From Acidimicrobiia bacterium (lineage in GTDB: Bacteria > Acidobacteriota > Vicinamibacteria > Vicinamibacterales > CAVVIG01), in the NCBI GenBank assembly GCA_016871175.1, contig VFZL01000029.1, positions 1 to 53,538 on the forward strand: a stretch of 53,538 bases of DNA. The letters run 5' to 3'. Both the position numbers and the translations under genes were made by a program. Positions 19,839 to 41,326 of this stretch are shown here, in pieces. The stretch's first letter is position 1, and every line of letters begins with the position of its first letter. Under the pieces are notes generated by a model. That model saw only the letters and a program-made list of their open reading frames with translations, made no database searches and was not told the origin of the DNA.

Positions 19839-20504
19839 GTGGCACTGACGGTCGTGCGTGCAACCCTAGTGGGCCTCTTGTGCCTCACGGAGGCTGCGGC
19901 CTTCGCGCAGAACACCGAGGATCAGAATGCGTTCGATTTCTCGCTGCCTGGGGCGCGCGGACGCGGCATTGGCGGCACCTTTGTGGCGATCGCTGACGAC
20001 GCTACGGCGGTCTACAGCAACCCAGCAGGGCTGATGCAGCCGTTCCGGCCCGAGGTGTCCATCGAGCTGCGGCACTGGAACTTCACCAGCCAGATGCCCA
20101 CGCGGGGGCATGCGTTCGGTCCAGCCACGCGGGTTGGCGCCGATACGATCGACGGTCTGGTCGACGGCCGCTTTCGGGGTGACGCGACCGGGGTGTCGTT
20201 TGCATCCTTCGTCTACCCGGGTGACGGGTGGGCCATCGGCGTGTTTCGGCACCAACTATCGCGCTATCGGATGAATCGACAGATCGAGGGTCCGTACTTT
20301 CACTGCACCGGCGGCTTTCGCGTAGGCAACACCGTCGCAGATCCGCCATTCTGCGAGCCCAACGCACGGGGCGACGGTATCGACCGGGAGTTTCCCAAGC
20401 AGCAATCGCTTGCGCTGGACATCGACAGCACGGGCGGCGACGGCGCGAAAAGCTGCGGCGATACGCCGCTCAGGTCGATCCATCCATCCTCCAGCCGCCG
20501 GTGA
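19839..20504 (+). pseudogene. Truncated FadL/TodX-type outer-membrane protein
   Basis: Signal peptide about residues 1-22 (AAAFAQ), then the clear OMPP1/FadL N-terminus: NAFDFSLPGARGRGIGGTFV, AIADDATAVYSNPAGLMQPF, PEVSIELRHWNF. FadL proteins run 400-500 residues and transport hydrophobic compounds. Here the barrel homology ends near residue 195 (SLALDIDS) and is replaced by an unrelated tail (GGDGAKSCGDTPLRSIHPSS). The join at about 20430 is probably a deletion, leaving a non-functional N-terminal fragment. About 280 bases upstream (19556-19838) hold no supportable gene. Confidence 0.7.
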
Positions 20505-23150: not shown

Positions 23151-24515
23151 GTGTTCGCCGAACAGGTGACGATGCTTTATGGCACCGCCCCGTACTCATT
23201 GGCCGCCAACGCGATAGCGGCCATCCTCTTGAGCGTGACCGCCGACCCGTGGGTGTCACACACGCGAAACGTCCTGTGGCTGTGCACGCTCCTCGTCGTC
23301 TGTGGCGGCCGCGGCGTCTTGGTGTGGGCCTTCCTCCGAGTGCCAAGACAACCCGAAGAGGCCGGCCGCTGGTCGCTCTACTTCTTGATGGGCGCCAGCT
23401 TGACGGGTGCCGTTTGGGGTGCCCTGGGGGCCGGTGCCTTACAACCGATTGCGCCCTGGCTGATGCTGCATGAGGGCATGTTGCCCACGGCCTTGCTTGG
23501 CGCCGCCATGGCAGCGCTCTATCCCCACACCCCGACGTTTGTGGCATTCGTCCTGCCGCTCACGATTCCGTTCGTGCTCCGAGCGTCGGTGGCGCCAGAG
23601 CCGTTGCGCCAAGGCGCCGTGACCGTCGCCGTAGCTGTCGTGGCAGCGATTGTCGGCGCTCGAAAGCTCTGCGCGGCGACGAAGGCCAACATCCTCCTCA
23701 AGCTGGAGGCCGCCGCGTTAGCCGTCCAGTATCAGCAGGCGAAGGAAGCCGCGGAGACGGCGAGTCGCACGAAGAGCGCCTTCCTGGCGAACATGGGCCA
23801 TGAGCTGCGCACGCCGCTCAACGCGATCATCGGATACAGCGAGCTGTTGCGCGAAGTGGCGGCAGACGAGCAGCTGACCCAGTTCAGCACGGATCTCGCG
23901 CACATCGAGCACTCCGGAAAGCAGCTACTGGCATTGATCGGCGACGTCCTCGACCTGGCGAAAATCGAGGCCAAGCGCTTCGACGTGGCGATCGAGCCGA
24001 TCGAAACCGCCTATGTGTTGGAAGCCGTCACGACAAGCGGCCGAGCGTTCGCGAAAACGCGAGAGAATCGGTTCACGGTGACAGTGGCGCCCGGCGTTGG
24101 TGTTGTGCTGGCCGACCCCAAGGCGCTTCGACAAATCCTGGTAAACCTCATCTCGAACGCGTGCAAGTTCACCGATCACGGAGAGATCAGACTGACGGTC
24201 AGTCCGGAACCTCACGGCAACGGACATTCGCCGAGGCGCGTGTGTTTTGCGGTGAGCGACACCGGCCCCGGGATTCCGCGGGAACACCTACCGCTCATCT
24301 TCGACGACTTCCACATGGTGGACAGCTCCTCCACTCGTCGGAACGGCGGTACAGGCCTGGGCCTCGCCATCGTCCGGCGCCTCGCGGATCTCCTCGGAGC
24401 CACGCTCGACGTGGAGAGTGAGCCCGGTCGTGGATCGACGTTCTGCGTCTATGTCCCAGCAGCTGAGCCATCACGCGCGGCAAGGACTCACGAGTACGCC
24501 ATGGAAGCGCCGTAG
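23151..24515 (+). CDS. Membrane sensor histidine kinase, 454 aa
   Basis: The N-terminal 190 residues contain about six hydrophobic helices (for example VLWLCTLLVVCGGRGVLVWA and VTVAVAVVAAIVGA), then a coiled linker (LEAAALAVQYQQAKEAAETA). The HisKA box FLANMGHELRTPLNAIIGYS carries the phospho-acceptor His at about residue 222. The ATPase has N box LVNLISNACKFTDHG, G1 VSDTGPGIP, F box IFDDF and G2 GGTGLGLAIV, so it should be active. No receiver domain or response regulator gene is adjacent, making it an orphan kinase whose partner lies elsewhere. GTG 23151 is the chosen start; upstream in-frame sequence gives no better one. Confidence 0.85.
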   Translation: MFAEQVTMLYGTAPYSLAANAIAAILLSVTADPWVSHTRNVLWLCTLLVVCGGRGVLVWAFLRVPRQPEEAGRWSLYFLMGASLTGAVWGALGAGALQPIAPWLMLHEGMLPTALLGAAMAALYPHTPTFVAFVLPLTIPFVLRASVAPEPLRQGAVTVAVAVVAAIVGARKLCAATKANILLKLEAAALAVQYQQAKEAAETASRTKSAFLANMGHELRTPLNAIIGYSELLREVAADEQLTQFSTDLAHIEHSGKQLLALIGDVLDLAKIEAKRFDVAIEPIETAYVLEAVTTSGRAFAKTRENRFTVTVAPGVGVVLADPKALRQILVNLISNACKFTDHGEIRLTVSPEPHGNGHSPRRVCFAVSDTGPGIPREHLPLIFDDFHMVDSSSTRRNGGTGLGLAIVRRLADLLGATLDVESEPGRGSTFCVYVPAAEPSRAARTHEYAMEAP

Positions 24516-24648: not shown

Positions 24649-25789
24649 GTGACGGCCCCACAACACCAGGACGAGCTGAGGCCGGAGAAGCTGAGGTCGC
24701 AACTGCTGTCAGACGCGTTCGCGGACAACGTGAGCACGATTCGGAACGAGCTGCGGCCGGAAGTTCGGCCGGGTCGGAGGCTTCGGCGGCACGTCGAGCG
24801 TTGGGGACCGCGGGCCAGCGTGATCGCGGTGTCAATCGGGATGGTGCTCGCCTTCACGGGGGTGGCGCGGCGGCAGCCGGCGCCACCTTCGAGCGGACAG
24901 CACGTCGCCGCATCACCATCGGCCGCGCCTGCCGGGCAAACGCCTCGGACGGGCCCGTCGGCCGGTGTCGGTCCGGACATCGACGACACGCGCCTCTCGC
25001 GCGCGGTGGATCCGGGAGTCCTCGAGCTCGGCGTTCGACGCGTGGTGCTCGACGCGGGTCATGGCGGCGAGAACCCCGGCACGGCGAGCGCGAGTGGCCT
25101 TCAGGAGAAGGACCTGACGCTCGACATCGCCGAGCGCGCGCGACGTGCTGGTCGCCCAGAAGTTCGAGGTCGTCATGACGCGCACGTCTGACGCCTCGGT
25201 TTCGCTGCAGGAGCGAGCCGCTCTCGCCAATGCGATGCACGGCGATGTCTTTGTGTCGATCCACCTGAACTCGCTGCAACCCGCGAGCGCGAAGGGGATC
25301 GAGACGTACTATCTGGGCCCGAGCGACGGCCCTGAGCACGACGCGATCGCGGCGAAGGAGAACCAGCACTCGGGGTACTCCCTAGCGGATCTGCGGTCAT
25401 TGCTCGAAAGGATCTACGCCGACGCGCGACGCGACGAGTCACGGCGGATGGCTGAGGCGGTCCAGCACTCGCTGGTCCGGGCGATGCAACGGATGGACCC
25501 GGCGCTGACGAACCGGGGCGTCAAGATGGCGCCGTTCGTGGTGCTGGTCGCCACCGACATGCCTGCGGTTCTCGCCGAGGTCGCGTGCCTCTCGAACGTC
25601 GGCGAAGCGGAGCGATTGAATACGCCCGGCTACCGGCAAACGCTGGCCGACGCGTTGGCGGCGGGGATTCGGGCGTTTGCGAATCGGCCAGGCGTTCGGA
25701 TGCCGGCACCGAGGCAGGAAACGGAACCGCGGCATGACAGCCAAACGCGAAGCGTCGCAGCAGAAAGGACAGGATCCAGTGGCAGCTAA
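24649..25789 (+). pseudogene. N-acetylmuramoyl-L-alanine amidase (Amidase_3), membrane-anchored, frameshifted
   Basis: Zinc amidase that cleaves the stem peptide from MurNAc, leaving denuded glycan. Frame 1 (24649-about 25136) gives a cytoplasmic head, a TM anchor at residues 56-72, a Pro/Ala linker and VVLDAGHGGENPG with zinc ligand His138 and Glu153. Frame 2 (from about 25145 to 25789) continues with VMTRTSDASVSLQERAALAN, VFVSIHLNSLQP (zinc His) and AVLAEVACLSN (catalytic Glu; usually EVGFLSN). The break falls in a GCGCGCGCG tract at 25134-25143, where gain of one base or loss of two would explain it. All catalytic motifs are intact, so an assembly error or slippage is as likely as real decay. 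Overlaps the start of the actin-like gene. Confidence 0.8.
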
Positions 25790-26816
25790 AGAACAGTTGG
25801 GCGGCATGTTGAGCGTCGGAATCGACCTGGGCACGTCTCGGAGCGCCATCTCATCCTCGAACGGCGAGCAGTTCGTCGTTGACAGCTTCGTTGGCTGGCC
25901 GGCGGACCTGGTGGCCCGGAAGGTGCTCCAGCGCGATCTGCTGATGGGCCGCGAGGCGATCGAGAACCGCACGATGCTCGACCTGCACCGACCCTTGGAG
26001 CGAGGGCTGCTGAAGGAAGGACCCGAGCGCGATGTCGAAGCGGCGCGCGAGCTCCTGCGCCATCTGCTGTCGCTCGTGGATGCCACCAAGAACGGCAAGT
26101 CGTCGCAGGTGCGCGCCGTGGTCGGCGTGCCGGCGGCTGCGCTGCGCACGAACAAGCAGTACCTGCGGGCCGCGCTCAAGGGTGTCGTCGACAGCCTGAT
26201 GATCGTGTCCGGGCCCTTCGCGGTGGCCTATGGTCTGAACGCACTCCTGCACACGATGATCATCGACATCGGGGCCGGCACGACCGACTTCGTGGTGATG
26301 AAGGGCCGCTACCCCACCGAAGACGACCAGCGCTCGCTGACGATCGCGGGCGACCACATCGACGCACATCTGCAGAAGCAGGTCCAGACGAAATACCACG
26401 AGGCGAACTTCACCATCTACATGGTGCGGGAGTGGAAGGAGAAGCACAGCTTCGTGGGCGATGCAACGGACAAGGTGGTGGTCACCGTGCCGATGGCAGG
26501 CGTGCCGACGCAGATCGACATCACCGAAGAAATGCGAGCGGCGTGCGAGTCGATTGTCCCGCCGATCGTGGAGACCATGCTCGACCTACTGCCGCACGTG
26601 GAGCCGGAGTTCCAAGAGCGCGTGCGGAAGAGCATCATCCTCGCCGGTGGCGGCGGGTTGATTCGGAACCTCGGTCCGACGCTCGAGGAGGCGCTGGAGC
26701 GCGTGGGCGGTGGCAGGATCAAAGTCATCGACGCTCCGGTTTTCTGCGGATCCGATGGCGGGCTCGCGCTCGCCAAGGACGCGCAGGAGGGAGACTGGGA
26801 TCGCTTGGTGAACTAA
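25734..26816 (+). CDS. MamK-like bacterial actin ATPase, 360 aa
   Basis: Actin/Hsp70-fold ATPase: phosphate-1 loop VGIDLGTSRSAISSSNG (about residues 27-43), phosphate-2 IIDIGAGTTDFVVMKG (about 178-193), adenosine loop IILAGGGGLIRNLGPTLEEA (about 301-320). Residues such as FVGWPADLVARKVLQRDLLM, LDLHRPLERGLLKEG, AVVGVPAAALRTNKQYL and GPFAVAYGLN line up, from memory, with MamK of magnetotactic bacteria rather than MreB, FtsA or ParM. It should polymerise into cytoplasmic filaments. Start ATG 25734 overlaps the amidase end by 56 bases; a GTG at 25779 with AAAGGA upstream is the alternative. No other magnetosome gene is in the window. Confidence 0.85.
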   Translation: MTAKREASQQKGQDPVAAKEQLGGMLSVGIDLGTSRSAISSSNGEQFVVDSFVGWPADLVARKVLQRDLLMGREAIENRTMLDLHRPLERGLLKEGPERDVEAARELLRHLLSLVDATKNGKSSQVRAVVGVPAAALRTNKQYLRAALKGVVDSLMIVSGPFAVAYGLNALLHTMIIDIGAGTTDFVVMKGRYPTEDDQRSLTIAGDHIDAHLQKQVQTKYHEANFTIYMVREWKEKHSFVGDATDKVVVTVPMAGVPTQIDITEEMRAACESIVPPIVETMLDLLPHVEPEFQERVRKSIILAGGGGLIRNLGPTLEEALERVGGGRIKVIDAPVFCGSDGGLALAKDAQEGDWDRLVN

Positions 26817-26922
26817 CTCGTGTGGGGCTCCGCCCCCCTTGGGCAAGACGAGAGCAGTGAAGCTGACCAGAGCACGGAAGAGTTTCCCGTGGGTGCCCGA
26901 GCTGTCCCCGCGGAACACCCGC

Positions 26923-27600
26923 ATGGCGTTCGACGAGGAACGGTTCACGGCCGAGGAGATCGTCAGCGTGACCCGGGCCGGCGAAGCGGGCGAGAAGCTC
27001 GTCGATCTGTGTCAGTCGGTCGGCATCATGCCCGAGACGTACTACGCCTGGAAGGCACGCTACAGCGGGCTGGCGGCGTCGCAGGTGCACGACCTGCGTC
27101 GCCGGGCCCATCTCCGCAAGCGGCGTGTCACCCTACTTGCGTGGGCTCTCTGCGTTGCGATCGTGGGCGTGAGCGCACTCATGGCCCTGCGGTCTTCGAA
27201 TGCCTCGACGTCCGCTCATGCCATCACGCAGCCCGTCGCTGACGCCAGCAAGCCACTCCCACAGCAGTCCGAAGCGGCCGGGTCGAAGGCATCGGCCGAT
27301 GCCCCTCAGGTCCCCGACGGACCACGTCAGGCTCACGACGAAGGTCCAGCGTCCACCGACTACTTCGCTGCCGACGGTTACTCCGTTCAGGTTGCCGCCA
27401 TGCCCGACTTGCAGCAGGCGCGGACCGCTCTCGAGAAGCTGGTCGCCGCCGGCCACGCGGCGCACCTCACGACCAAGACCATCAAGGGCGTCGAGATGTA
27501 TCGCGTCCGCGTCGGCCCGTTCGGCACACGCCACGCTGCCGCGCAGGTAGCGGAGCGGCTCTCGCACGACGGTTACAAGTCCTCCTGGATCACGCGGTAA
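26923..27600 (+). CDS. Bitopic protein: IS3-OrfA-like HTH, TM helix, SPOR domain, 225 aa
   Basis: Residues 7-50 (RFTAEEIVSVTRAGEAGEK, LVDLCQSVGIMPETYYAWKA, RYSGL) match the Transposase_8 HTH of IS3-family OrfA proteins. A basic stretch (RRRAHLRKRR) then precedes one TM helix at about 69-89, giving N-in topology. A low-complexity periplasmic linker follows. The C-terminal SPOR domain spans about 152-225 (YSVQVAAMPDLQQARTALEK, VEMYRVRVGPFGTRHAAAQV). SPOR domains bind glycan strands stripped of peptides by amidases, and an amidase gene lies two genes upstream. I chose ATG 26923 because it directly precedes the HTH; GTG 26857 is possible. The fusion of transposase-type HTH to SPOR is unusual. Confidence 0.8.
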   Translation: MAFDEERFTAEEIVSVTRAGEAGEKLVDLCQSVGIMPETYYAWKARYSGLAASQVHDLRRRAHLRKRRVTLLAWALCVAIVGVSALMALRSSNASTSAHAITQPVADASKPLPQQSEAAGSKASADAPQVPDGPRQAHDEGPASTDYFAADGYSVQVAAMPDLQQARTALEKLVAAGHAAHLTTKTIKGVEMYRVRVGPFGTRHAAAQVAERLSHDGYKSSWITR

Positions 27601-36531: not shown

Positions 36532-37584
36532 TTAGCTGCCTCCCACCAGCGTCACCCAGGCCCCCGGGCGCCGCGGCACGGCGTGGCCGATCACGGTGGC
36601 CCCCTCAACCCCGGCCGACCGCAAACGGCGGACAAGCCGGCTCGCGTGGTCGGCTCCGATCGCAATCAACAGTCCGCCGGAGGTCTGAGGGTCGAAGGCG
36701 ACGTCGGCGTAGCCGCTCGAGACCGGGGGCTCCACGACCACCTTGTCAGCCAGGTAGGCCTGATTTCTCTTGCAGCCTCCCGTGAGGTATCCGGCCGACG
36801 CCAAACGGAGCGCACCGGGTAGCACGGGCAACGCCTTGGCCTCGAACACCAACGAGACGCCGCTCCCCATGGCCATCTCGGTGCCGTGGCCAAGCAGCGC
36901 GAAGCCGGTCACGTCGGAGCATGCGTGGACCGGAAACGTGCGCATCACCTCCGACGCGCGCTTGTTCAGGGCGACCATCGACGCGATCGCTGCCTTCACG
37001 GTTGACGGCGATGCCTTCCGTCTCTTCAGCGCGGTTGTGACAATCCCAGTGCCCAGCGGCTTGGTCAAGACCAGGACGTCCCCCACCCGCACGCCAACGT
37101 TGCGAATGATGCGCTTCGGGTGCACCACCCCGGTCACGGCCATCCCGTACTTCAGCTCGGGATCGATGATCGTGTGTCCGCCGATCACGACCGCCCCAGC
37201 CTCGCGTGCCCGTTCGAGACCGCCCTCGAGCACGGCCCCGAGCACGTCGAGATCGAGCGTCGCCTTCGGAAAGCCGACGATGTTGAGGGCGGTGAGCGGA
37301 TCGCCGCCCATCGCGTACACATCACTGAGCGCGTTTGCGGCAGCGATTTGTCCGAACACGTACGGGTCATCGACGATGGGCGTGAAGAAGTCGACCGTGT
37401 TCACGATTGCCAAATCACCACGCAGGCGGAACACGCCCGCATCGTCGGACGTCTCGGTGCCGACGAGCACATCGGGATGCTGGATTCTGGGTAAGCGGCG
37501 CAACACGTGCGCCAAATCGGCTGGGCCGAGCTTCGCCGCTCAACCCGCCGCCGCGACTTGCTGCGTGAGTCCCAGCGCCTTCAC
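36532..37584 (-). CDS. selD: Selenophosphate synthetase, itself a selenoprotein, 350 aa
   Basis: Makes monoselenophosphate from selenide and ATP, the selenium donor for Sec-tRNA. GTG 37584 (GGAAGG five bases upstream) gives VKALGLTQQVAAAG, then TGA at 37540-37542 (residue 15), then AAKLGPADLAHVLRRLP. The UGA sits where E. coli SelD has catalytic Cys17, and the essential Lys (Lys20 equivalent) follows three residues later; the second Cys (Cys19) is Ala here. The rest is canonical AIRS fold: TSDDAGVFRLRGDLAIVNTV, DFFTPIVDDPYVFGQIAAAN, ALSDVYAMGGDPLTALNIVG, SDVTGFALLGHGTEMA, DPQTSGGLLIAI. Starts further upstream (GTG or TTG up to about 37656) are possible. Without recoding, the catalytic N-terminus is lost. 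Confidence 0.92.
37497..37513 (-). promoter_or_regulatory. Bacterial SECIS element of selD
   Basis: On the minus strand GGCGCA-CGTGT-TGCGCC forms a perfect 6-bp stem with a five-base loop starting 33 bases after the UGA, within the usual 16-37 base range. The loop is identical to that of the SelW-like gene. A second, shorter hairpin (TCGGC-CCA-GCCGA) lies closer to the UGA but lacks the loop G. Confidence 0.72.
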
Positions 37585-37739
37585 GAGCGCCTTCCGCCCC
37601 CCGCGCGCCACCGTCGCAGCCACTCCCCGCCGAGCCGTCGTCTTCAAAGTGGGTTTCAACGCGTTCCTACTAGCCTACCAGCCCATCCGCCTCTACCAGC
37701 CACACCCGGCTCACGTGGCTGGCGTGAACGCGAGGGACG

Positions 37740-39719
37740 CTAGCGGAGCCGCCGAGCCTCGCCGATCCTGATAGTGACGCCCTGACGGTCGAAGTACTCG
37801 AGGATCGGAATCGCGTACTTCCGGGACGTCTGATAGCGATCCCTGAAGGCAGCCGTGGTCAACGTCTTGCCGCCGGCGAGGTCGCGCTTCAGATCGTCGC
37901 GTACACGTTGGATCGCGTCTGCGGCAAAGTACAAGTCTGGCGCGACCGCAATGATCCGCTTCTCCTTTTCCAGGACGCGAAGGATCGGCAGAAGCTTCAC
38001 CCGATCGAGGCCCAGCGTCTCGCCGAGCGACTTTACATCGGGTGGACCGAGCGGTGCACTTGAAAGGGCCGCTTGAACGCGATCAGCGAGCACTTGATCG
38101 GCCCCCGTGACCTGAACCCGATGGGATGGCAGACGCAGCGCGCTCCCCTCCCGCACCAGCGTGCCTTGGTGCTCGAGCTCATCGACGAGCAGCCGAAAGA
38201 GGCGCGAGGGGACCGGCGCCGCGCCTGAAGCGGTGACGCCCCCAGTCCGGGCTCGGGCGTCTTCGATGTCGAGGCCCGGCGACAACGGCTGCGCGAGATG
38301 CCAGGCACGAACAGCCTCGATGACCCGCGCCTTGACAGTCGCCCAGTGGATCTCCAGCGCATACCGCCGACCGGTGTCAAGCGTGATCGGGTGCAGCGCG
38401 GGCCAGGCGTCGGCGCGCTCGCGCACAATCTCCTCCCGCTCGTTCAGCAATTGCGCCAGCGTTCCGCCCGAAACCGCAAAACCGTCGGCCGCGCCCGCGC
38501 TTCCGTTGGCCTCAGCCGTCGTCCCGGTCGCCACGCGGTCTGTGACCACCGCTTCGATCAGCGCATCCATGTCGTGTGACGCCAGCGCGGCAAGTCTTGA
38601 GAGAACGGAAGGACTCGTGCGGCGTCGCCTCGGCGCAGCTGGAAGCAGCACACGGCCACCTCCCAGCGTGTGCTGCGCTGTCTCATCGCGGATGATGAAA
38701 TGATCGCCGCGCATCACAGCCACCGGTTCGGAGACCACGATCTGACACCAGGCGCGCGTGCTCGGCGCGATTCGGTCCGTGCTTCCGCCCGTCGACCCCA
38801 TCGGCACGATCTTGCCGATCCGCTCCGCAGTGCCCACATGAACACGAACCCGTTGATGGTCCTTCACGGCCTTCCCGGCGGACGGCCGAATTTCGATCTC
38901 CGCATCGAAGCGAACGCAGGTCAGCGTGATGGCTTCGTGCACAATCACGTCGCCACGCGTGATCGCGCGCGTGCTGTCGCCGACCAGGTTGAGGGCGATC
39001 CGATGGCCCCAACTCGCCACCGGCACGGGTTGGCCATGCACTTCGACGCTGCGCACGCGGAGGGCATCGCCCGCGGGCAGACAGCGGACGCGGTCGCCCG
39101 GATGCACGTCTCCGGCAATCGCCGTTCCGGTCACGATGAGGCCGTGGCCCGCGAAGAGGAAGGCACGATCGACCGGCAGTCGAAACAACCCTGGCGGTCT
39201 GGGCTTGTCGGCGTTCCGGAGCGCGCGAACGATTTCCGTTCGGATCGCGTCCAGGCCCTGCAGCGTCGGCAACGCAAAGGGCAGGATCGACTCGTGCTCC
39301 AGGGCCGTCCCGGCAATCAGCCCGCGGATCTCGTCGGCGACCTCGCTCAAGCGCAGGGCGGTGACGAGATCCGCCTTGGTGATCACGAACACCGCGCGTC
39401 TCACACCCAGGAGATGGACGATGTCCAGATGCTCCACGGTCTGCGGCATCACGCCGTCGTCGGCGGCCACGGTGAAGAGCACGAGGTCGATGCCGTGCGC
39501 GCCAGCGAGCATGTTCTTGATGAACCGCTCGTGGCCGGGGACGTCGACGACGCCTGCGCGCGTCCCATCGGGAAGCGGGAGCGACGCGAAGCCGAGATCA
39601 ATCGAGATCCCGCGTTCCTTCTCCTCCTTCAGCCGGTCGGTGTCGACGCCGGTGAGCGCTTCGACCAGACTCGTCTTGCCGTGATCGATGTGGCCGGCGG
39701 TACCGATGATCCAGTGCAC
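37740..39719 (-). CDS. selB: Selenocysteine-specific elongation factor SelB, 659 aa
   Basis: Brings Sec-tRNA(Sec) to the ribosome at UGA codons followed by a SECIS. The GTPase domain starts at residue 1 with [20 protein letters not shown] (G1), [10 protein letters not shown] (switch I), [17 protein letters not shown] (G3) and ITKADLV (G4). Beta-barrel domains II-III follow (about 175-340, ending [11 protein letters not shown]). The C-terminal 300 residues contain the winged-helix repeats that read the SECIS (for example [20 protein letters not shown] and [20 protein letters not shown]). Length is slightly above the usual 610-640 because of a Gly/Ala-rich insertion near residue 400. GTG start lies eight bases after the selA stop, so selA-selB form an operon. 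Confidence 0.95.
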
Positions 39720-39727
39720 GACGTCGT

Positions 39728-41107
39728 TCAGCCCTGGCGCGGCACGAGGTCGTTCGGGTCGAAGACCGTTCGCACGTCCAGCAAGAAACGATCGTCCTTG
39801 ATGCGACCGATGATGGCGGGGCGAGCGGACCGAAACCGCCCGGCGATCTCATCGGCACTGAATTCGTCGCTGACGACCGCGAGGACCTTCGTCGGCAGTG
39901 TGTCGACTGGAAGCGCGCCACTGCCGACCTGAGAGGCACCGTCTTCGACAGAGACGCGATAGAACGGGCCGAGCGCATCGCTCAGCAGGCGGCTCGCCTC
40001 TTCTGCGATGATCGCGATCTCATCGAGCGGACGAGTGAAGTACCGCAACGTGGGAATATCACGCGCGAGATCCGGTGACTGCTGATACAGGCGAAGCGTC
40101 GCCGCGAGCGCTGCGAGCGTCATCTTGTCGCAGCGGACCGCACGGTGCAGCGGGTTCTCCCGGATCGCATCGACCCTGGCGCGGGCACCGGCTATGAGGC
40201 CTGACTGGGGACCACCAAGGAGCTTGTCGCCGCTGAACGTCACAACATCGGCACCGTCCACCAGGCTCTCCGACACCAGCGGTTCCTTGGGCAGGCCGAA
40301 GCGGCTCAGATCCACCAGTGCGCCGCTGCCCAGATCCTCCATCACCGGGATGCGATGAGCGCGTCCTATCGACACCAGCTGCGGGAGCGACACCTCGGAT
40401 GAGAATCCCACGATGCGGTAGTTGCTGGTGTGGACCTTCAGCAACAGCCCGGTGTTTGGTCCGATCGCGCGCTCGTAGTCGCTCGGGTGTGTCCGATTCG
40501 TCGTCCCCACTTCGCGGAGGACCGCACCGCTGCGCGCGACGATTTCCGGAATGCGAAACGCTCCGCCAATCTCCACCAGCTCCCCGCGTGAAACGATGAC
40601 TTCCTTCCCGGCGGCCAGGCTGTTTACGCCGACGAGCACGGCTGCCGCGTTGTTGTTGACGACGGTGGCGGCCTCCGCTCCGGTCAGCGCGGTCAGGAGC
40701 TTCTCCACCTCGGATTCGCGCCGTCCGCGCGCGCCTCTCTCAAGGTCAAACTCGAGATTGGTGGCCTGAGACGCGACAGTCACGACCGCATCGACCGCGG
40801 CCTGCGCCAGAATCGCGCGACCGAGGTTCGTGTGAAGGATGGTGCCGCTCGCGTTGACGACGCGCAGGAGGTGCGGCTCGCGGGTGACGGCCAAGCGCGC
40901 GTCGACGCTCTCGAGAATCCGCTCCTGAACCACATCCTCCGTTGATGTCAGGCGACCCTCCTGAATGTCACGACGAATGTGATCCAGGACGGCCCTGCAT
41001 GTCGCCGTCACGTAGTCGTGTGCGTACGTCCCGAACCATCGCTGACCACGCTCGGTCGATAGCAAGCGATCGACTGACGGCAGAGACCGCAGAAGCGACG
41101 CTGACAC
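39728..41107 (-). CDS. selA: L-seryl-tRNA(Sec) selenium transferase, 459 aa
   Basis: PLP enzyme converting Ser-tRNA(Sec) to Sec-tRNA(Sec) with selenophosphate. The N-terminus LLRSLPSVDRLLSTERGQRW matches E. coli SelA (QLPAIDRLL), which fixes the start at GTG 41107 rather than the longer open frame to 41311. Core motifs: LRVVNASGTILHTNLGRAIL, AATVVNNNAAAVLVGVNSLA, EVIVSRGELVEIGGAFRIPE, MEDLGSGALVDLSRFGLP and the PLP Lys in VTFSGDKLLGGPQSGLIAG. Length equals the bacterial norm (about 460). There is no Shine-Dalgarno before 41107, but a TATACT box six bases upstream suggests a leaderless transcript. First gene of selA-selB, upstream of selD. Confidence 0.95.
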   Translation of the reverse strand: MSASLLRSLPSVDRLLSTERGQRWFGTYAHDYVTATCRAVLDHIRRDIQEGRLTSTEDVVQERILESVDARLAVTREPHLLRVVNASGTILHTNLGRAILAQAAVDAVVTVASQATNLEFDLERGARGRRESEVEKLLTALTGAEAATVVNNNAAAVLVGVNSLAAGKEVIVSRGELVEIGGAFRIPEIVARSGAVLREVGTTNRTHPSDYERAIGPNTGLLLKVHTSNYRIVGFSSEVSLPQLVSIGRAHRIPVMEDLGSGALVDLSRFGLPKEPLVSESLVDGADVVTFSGDKLLGGPQSGLIAGARARVDAIRENPLHRAVRCDKMTLAALAATLRLYQQSPDLARDIPTLRYFTRPLDEIAIIAEEASRLLSDALGPFYRVSVEDGASQVGSGALPVDTLPTKVLAVVSDEFSADEIAGRFRSARPAIIGRIKDDRFLLDVRTVFDPNDLVPRQG

Positions 41108-41113
41108 GCGATT

Positions 41114-41142
41114 AGTATACGGCCCGCATTCGGTACGCGAAA
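41114..41142 (-). promoter_or_regulatory. Candidate selA promoter giving a leaderless mRNA
   Basis: On the minus strand TATACT (41119-41114) is preceded by TTTCGC (41142-41137) with a 17-base spacer. Six bases separate the -10 box from the GTG at 41107, placing the expected transcription start at or next to the start codon. The lack of a Shine-Dalgarno sequence supports this reading. Confidence 0.4.
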
Positions 41143-41326
41143 TCGATAGCCGTAACTCGTAAACGCGGGGACGTCCCGAGCGGGGCGCGTCGGCGCACAA
41201 CGACCGGTGCCACGAGGGTGTGGGCGCACAACGTCGTGAGGCATCTTCGGGCCCCGGAATTGCAGCCCTCGGCGGAACGGGACTCGTAACCCGGCAATCA
41301 GTTTTCACCACTGGGGAGGGTAGTCG

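Follow-up and report, generated by a model that had tools for sequence, protein, structure and literature searches.

A MamK-family actin and an N-acetylmuramoyl-L-alanine amidase form a conserved gene pair in Acidobacteriota, which a SPOR-domain protein extends in some lineages. We describe this cassette in a stretch of 53,538 nucleotides (hereafter the window) from an Acidimicrobiia bacterium genome assigned by GTDB to the Vicinamibacterales (GenBank GCA_016871175.1, contig VFZL01000029.1; an assembly of 4.44 Mb in 85 contigs, with a completeness of ~97%). Positions 24649-27600 of the + strand hold, in this order, an Amidase_3 gene, a MamK-like actin gene and a gene for a transmembrane (TM) protein with a SPOR domain. 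The reading that we favour, with a probability of about 0.6, is that the amidase is tethered to a filament: a cytosolic helix of the enzyme would dock on the MamK-family filament, with feedback through the SPOR protein in some lineages. An initial annotation of the window, made from its letters without database searches, had named these three genes in the same order, which holds, although the amidase is not a single open reading frame.

Conservation of the amidase-actin pair

The amidase gene lies just upstream of the actin gene in all 65 loci compared (tblastn with the amidase of the sister species), at gaps of at most about 300 bases. These loci are the window, L002 (the same place as L043, the sister-species locus that serves as reference for comparisons with the window), 35 named loci and 28 loci from a phylum sample; seven are duplicates, leaving 58 non-redundant. 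Since the named loci were found by the actin alone and the phylum-sample loci by the MamK profile alone (E 1e-40), neither set was chosen for its amidases. The phylum sample comprises 297 Acidobacteriota genomes, 28 of which carry the actin, all with this amidase beside it; these 28 are not independent, as they represent 16 genera and 11 of them belong to one genus (g100).

A profile (A1) built from 49 actin-linked amidases, with up to seven candidates scored per genome, places its best 27 of the 297 genomes (350.7-474.8 bits) exclusively among the actin-bearing ones. The one actin-bearing genome outside this set is that of the window, where the second half of the broken amidase gene reaches 294.1 bits, and the best actin-less genome (G037) scores 293.8 bits in a match starting at profile position 102. 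The top matches begin within the first seven model positions in 26 of 27 cases, the exception being G273, at position 88 and at a contig end. Among the actin-less matches listed, the profile start is at least 54 except in G223, at position 11, whose amidase shows AMIN-like repeats by eye. Genes downstream of the actin vary between loci, and open-frame clustering revealed no other coding-strand neighbour common to all of them, the other large clusters being antisense to the pair. Adjacency in 65 of 65 loci together with co-occurrence across 297 genomes rules out a chance association of the two genes. Each of the 22 genomes with the actin that were searched (of the 29 then known) has an FtsA over cut-off, which excludes the actin as a replacement for FtsA and indicates a system additional to the divisome.

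The actin of the window is encoded at 25806..26816 (+); ATG 25806 is the preferred start, and ATG 25734, which would overlap the amidase, is possible. It scores 370 bits (E 1e-110) against the NCBIfam MamK family (NF040964), below the cut-off of 400, 203 bits against BeeR (NF053558; cut-off 530) and 74 bits against MreB, and its best solved structures are those of MamK (PDB 5ljw, E 4.2e-75). Only 2 of the 297 phylum-sample genomes exceed the MamK cut-off. Identity across 43 aligned Acidobacteriota actins is 36-43% with AMB-1 MamK and 28-33% with BeeR, counted over the aligned part of each. Two magnetosome families were searched for: MamA is not over cut-off in the window's own genome, and MamP is over cut-off in none of eight genomes. 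At the position of the catalytic MamK Glu143, the alignment gives a Gly codon in the window actin (26211..26213, +) and Glu in the 42 other aligned actins. According to the excerpted text of PMC5059902, other actins lost their ATPase activity and filament dynamics when D161 or E143 was changed.

A search of 40 genomes, some incomplete, from the order, family and genus of the window finds the actin only in the two of that genus: two matches lie at E of at most 2.6e-200, and all others have E of at least 2e-14 and 26-31% identity. The actin tree places the window and L043 in a clade of 17 rows (support 100/99) that also holds actins of family f37 and of records labelled gp7 or Thermoanaerobaculia. 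This distribution and tree position are consistent with horizontal acquisition; the amidase tree leaves the placement of L043 unresolved. A plasmid-borne actin was considered and dropped, as the plasmid collection gave no match at E 1e-20.

The amidase and its cytosolic helix

In the window, the amidase gene is split across two frames. The first half (24649..25191, +) encodes the predicted cytosolic N-terminus, a predicted TM helix (24814..24867, +; hydropathy maximum 1.78) and the start of Amidase_3 (Pfam, residues 132-165, profile positions 1-34). The second half (25145..25789, +), in another frame, holds the rest of the domain (residues 2-176, profile positions 37-173, E 4.5e-35) and is 72.5% identical to the gene of the sister species. 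Alignment to L043, where the amidase is intact and 353 aa long, locates the loss of frame near 25130, with a net difference of two bases. Throughout, TM helices were assigned from hydropathy or by eye, and gene calls in the compared loci are mechanical. A second locus with an amidase split across two frames is L038:9330-10000.

The AlphaFold2 model of the L043 amidase has a catalytic domain mostly above 90 in predicted local distance difference test (pLDDT), and a Foldseek search gives AmiA (8c2o_B, TM-score by target 0.84) and AmiC of E. coli as its nearest structures, in keeping with the Amidase_3 fold of AmiA/AmiC-type amidases. Amidases of that type are free periplasmic proteins with a cleaved signal peptide. 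In the family described here, the conserved segment that precedes the hydrophobic helix argues for a membrane anchor. The initial annotation had assigned the contact with the wall to the SPOR protein; the better-conserved wall link is the amidase itself.

This preceding segment carries a motif of the form hydrophobic-x-x-small-hydrophobic-x-(D/E/S/Q/N/T)-Asn, situated 14-30 residues before the predicted TM helix, with a majority pattern of about K-R-x-x-L-R-x-A-V-x-E-N-L. The window copy, read by eye, is LRSQLLSDAFADNVSTI (24691..24741, +), a candidate actin-binding peptide. The motif is present in 55 of 55 non-redundant readable actin-linked amidases, with 0.22 expected by shuffling; it was fitted by eye, and its first form, found in 60 of 61, was widened at one position to admit L082. 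Left out of the 55 are the window, its copy L077, L038 (frameshifted), L069 (contig end) and six duplicates. The Asn (N37 of L043) is invariant in the 49 aligned amidases, whose start codons were chosen relative to the motif, and AlphaFold2 predicts a helix at residues 24-42 of the L043 protein (block pLDDT 78-82).

As controls we took 28 other amidases from same-family genomes, two of them the second amidases of G000 and G001. The motif precedes the catalytic domain in none of the 27 with a readable catalytic motif (0.5 expected by chance; L135 is cut before that part), nor in any of the four top-scoring amidases of actin-less genomes (G223, G037, G283 and G305). Adjacency, co-occurrence across the phylum and a cytosolic helix absent from control amidases thus strongly support a functional link between actin and amidase. 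By analogy with the tail of the peptidase LmdC on bactofilin, discussed below, this helix is the leading candidate for the contact with the filament.

SPOR-domain partners of the actin

The third gene of the window (26923..27600, +) starts at ATG 26923, with an upstream TTG at 26839 possible, and is conserved in the sister species. Its product has a predicted cytosolic helix-turn-helix (HTH) domain of the family HTH_Tnp_1 (26938..27090, +; Pfam PF01527, 34.2 bits, cut-off 24.1, E 3e-8), a hydrophobic stretch taken by eye from the translation as its TM helix (27127..27189, +), and a predicted periplasmic SPOR domain (27370..27594, +; PF05036, 65.2 bits). The SPOR domain, above the Pfam cut-off, and the membrane helix had both been named in the initial annotation, and both stand; the N-terminal HTH_Tnp_1 domain had gone unmentioned. 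It is the only Pfam HTH match of the protein at E 0.05, so that a RodZ-type HTH was not found, and its weak matches to IS481/IS3 transposases lie below cut-off. Only two SPOR matches occur in the whole window genome at E 0.001, which makes a SPOR neighbour of the actin unlikely to have arisen by chance. Outside the window's genus, a pattern for its HTH has no match downstream of the actin in any lineage.

A second form of the partner follows the actin directly in 17 of the 65 loci (16 non-redundant). It consists of a predicted three-helix cytosolic domain (pLDDT ~93), a low-confidence Pro/Ala-rich stretch with a TM helix, and a C-terminal SPOR domain, the latter present wherever the contig is long enough and above the Pfam cut-off in all eight proteins tested. 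In L050, L052, L055 and L059 the chosen start codon overlaps the actin stop. A profile built from 13 of these loci found nothing in G000 or G001 at E 0.001, and the two SPOR forms therefore appear to be separate recruitments; in G220 it finds a gene on a contig other than that of the actin, which ends inside the actin gene. With a broader SPOR profile the domain is detected at 17 of the 65 loci (14 of them non-redundant); in each case it lies immediately 3' of the actin, and it occurs nowhere else in the compared flanks, which are at most 10 kb and often at most 1.5 kb long. Of the 28 actin-bearing genomes in the phylum sample, 4 (the window's own, G204, G131 and G090), from 3 of the 16 genera, have a SPOR gene immediately after the actin. 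The initial annotation had staked its proposal on a neighbourhood conserved in relatives; the pair bears this out, the trio does so in part. Because the SPOR partner is present in only some lineages and in two unrelated forms, the trio is a recurring extension and the amidase-actin pair is the core.

The cytosolic domain of the second form matches no Pfam family above cut-off, with one sub-threshold hit to TetR_C (E 0.03); a SelA-like origin, guessed by eye, is unsupported by Pfam. Foldseek with the whole third protein of L057 returned nothing at E 0.001: a Burkholderia exported protein ranked first (6ozd_A, E 3.6e-3), followed by RlpA SPOR structures at ranks 2 and 3 (6i09, E 1.9e-2, probability 1.0; 6i05), and the best 50 matches include no convincing relative of the cytosolic domain. 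Yet another kind of membrane partner is encoded after the actin of G053, at L071:219-1337 (-): it combines a PilZ domain with a predicted TM helix, and its C-terminal domain is unassigned. In L071 and L047, AMIN domains downstream of the actin were seen by eye only; they gave no Pfam match, and we do not claim them.

Around the cassette, a membrane sensor histidine kinase gene lies directly upstream in the window (23151-24515). In L043 a 61%-identical kinase is ~2.4 kb upstream of the amidase and not adjacent to it, and we did not retain the kinase as a member. Elsewhere in the window, a selenocysteine incorporation cluster with SelD-like (AIRS), SelB and SelA genes occupies 36532-41311 on the - strand, and ARAGORN found no tRNA. 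A FadL/Toluene_X-like fragment of 221 aa at 19839-20504, a weak partial match, is possibly another truncated or frameshifted gene.

A proposed filament-tethered amidase and its alternatives

In the mechanism that we propose, the core would have two parts: a filament of MamK-family actin in the cytoplasm and a bitopic N-acetylmuramoyl-L-alanine amidase. The short cytosolic helix of the amidase would dock on the filament, which would thereby determine the sites at which stem peptides are removed from peptidoglycan. Directly after the actin, the window's genus and one other lineage encode a further bitopic protein; its SPOR domain would bind the denuded glycan made by the amidase, and its cytosolic domain, a transposase-type HTH or a three-helix domain, probably reaches back to the filament. 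The outcome would be a positive feedback loop, like that of FtsA, FtsN and the amidases in division. The place of action may be a division or curvature site, with daughter separation, curvature and growth-zone control as candidate roles. A more specific version, to which we give somewhat less than even odds, has the filament gripping the amidase through the invariant-Asn helix and a TM-SPOR partner acquired twice independently, with unrelated cytosolic adaptors of which one is a domesticated transposase-type HTH, giving a self-reinforcing loop between filament and wall that is separate from MreB and FtsA.

The closest mechanistic precedent is bactofilin BacA with the bitopic M23 peptidase LmdC: as reported in excerpts of PMC10945521, the two are encoded together and the cytosolic tail of LmdC binds bactofilin. 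Adjacent or overlapping genes, a cytoplasmic filament and a bitopic hydrolase with a short conserved cytosolic N-terminus, which does the recruiting in LmdC, are common to both systems, the topology being predicted in ours. The Acidobacteriota cassette is not a bactofilin-LmdC pair, since actin stands in place of bactofilin, an Amidase_3 enzyme in place of the M23 DD-endopeptidase and a predicted helix in place of a beta-hairpin, and some lineages add a SPOR partner. The division proteins offer a second comparison. According to excerpts of PMC8998562, the cytosolic part of FtsN interacts with FtsA and its SPOR domain binds amidase-made denuded glycan. FtsA, FtsN and AmiA/B/C likewise combine an actin-fold protein, a bitopic SPOR protein and a division-type amidase whose product is the SPOR ligand; unlike them, the cassette is compact, its actin is of the MamK family, its amidase is predicted to be membrane-anchored and FtsA is present separately. 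The window's SPOR protein shares the bitopic layout and C-terminal SPOR domain of FtsN and scores only 23.5 bits against that family (TIGR02223; cut-off 107.65). RodZ, a membrane protein whose cytosolic HTH acts on MreB (excerpts of PMC6052060), resembles the third protein in having a cytosolic HTH, a TM helix and a periplasmic domain beside an actin partner; here HTH_Tnp_1 and SPOR replace the RodZ domains, and the partnership with actin is a prediction.

The RodZ comparison bears on one alternative, in which the pair works together and the third protein regulates transcription from the membrane, its HTH binding DNA and its SPOR domain sensing amidase-processed wall, with no tether to a filament. 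The DNA-binding transposase type of the HTH, above cut-off for HTH_Tnp_1 and with its weaker IS481/IS3 matches, would suit such a regulator. So would the ratio of nonsynonymous to synonymous substitution rates (dN/dS) between window and sister species, which is 0.65 in the HTH region, a weaker constraint than the 0.10 of the actin (0.50 for the whole SPOR protein, 0.44 for the SPOR domain). We nevertheless consider a regulator unlikely, since the other lineage has a TM-SPOR protein in the same position whose cytosolic domain belongs to no Pfam family above cut-off, and RodZ provides a case of a membrane-protein HTH acting on an actin. A different role for the amidase N-terminus, in membrane insertion, in dimerisation or in binding another partner such as a division protein, with the actin merely co-regulated, would agree with the position of the motif in a short basic stretch near the membrane. 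It seems improbable to us, given that the helix tracks the actin, occurring in every adjoining amidase that could be read and in no control or top-scoring actin-less amidase.

The cassette of the window genome could also be a decaying remnant without present function, a somewhat doubtful prospect that the frameshift and the Gly at the E143 position bring to mind. Constraint relative to the sister species is strong, with dN/dS of 0.10 in the actin and 0.25 in the second half of the amidase (0.46 in the first half), and the fragmented assembly could be in error at both places; the two changes may thus reflect either decay or misassembly. That the actin is a magnetosome-type MamK with the amidase as a chance neighbour is scarcely credible. 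MamK is the closest named family and supplies the closest solved structures, yet the actin falls below the MamK cut-off, neither MamA nor MamP is over cut-off where searched, and adjacency in every locus of the comparison already refutes a chance neighbour.

Several observations weigh against the tethered amidase that we prefer. A complex between helix and actin is something that single-chain prediction cannot show. The amidase profile was made from actin-linked members, and the motif was written after the sequences had been inspected and then widened once, so that both lean towards the result. Of the 28 genomes with the actin in the phylum sample, 24 lack the trio, and a frameshifted amidase beside an actin without its catalytic Glu may mean that the cassette is decaying in the window genome. 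Three viral contigs (L152, L153 and L154; 50-274 kb) carry MamK-like actins 36-40% identical to the query and no amidase in their 5-kb flanks, which shows that the pairing does not extend to all MamK-like proteins and leaves a general MamK-amidase link unsupported. In L152, the gene after the actin resembles a phage terminase by eye.

The initial annotation knew of no named system with this composition, and the literature agrees: among the matches listed, open-licence PubMed Central titles and abstracts describe none, nor any MamK-like actin paired with an amidase. PMC7203096, as far as its indexed text goes, mentions both MamK and Acidobacteria. The MamK of magnetotactic bacteria (PDB 5ljw, 5jyg; NF040964) is the nearest actin family, and differs in that the window actin is below its cut-off, no MamA or MamP is over cut-off and the partner is a wall amidase. 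BeeR of Verrucomicrobiota (PMC11929497) is likewise a MamK-related actin of non-magnetotactic bacteria, whose function is unknown according to its authors; it differs in its 28-33% identity and three-stranded filament, and the excerpted text mentions no amidase partner for it. The strict pairing with an amidase provides, for another group of MamK-related actins outside the magnetotactic bacteria, a function that can be tested and a peptide that is a candidate for binding. If the predicted binding is true, the filaments that recruit a bitopic wall hydrolase by its cytosolic tail would include an actin as well as bactofilin, and the existence of two unrelated SPOR partners would amount to a natural experiment in building feedback between filament and wall. 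Our analysis suggests that, in some uncultured Acidobacteriota, a filament may steer the remodelling of the wall by a route not recognised before.

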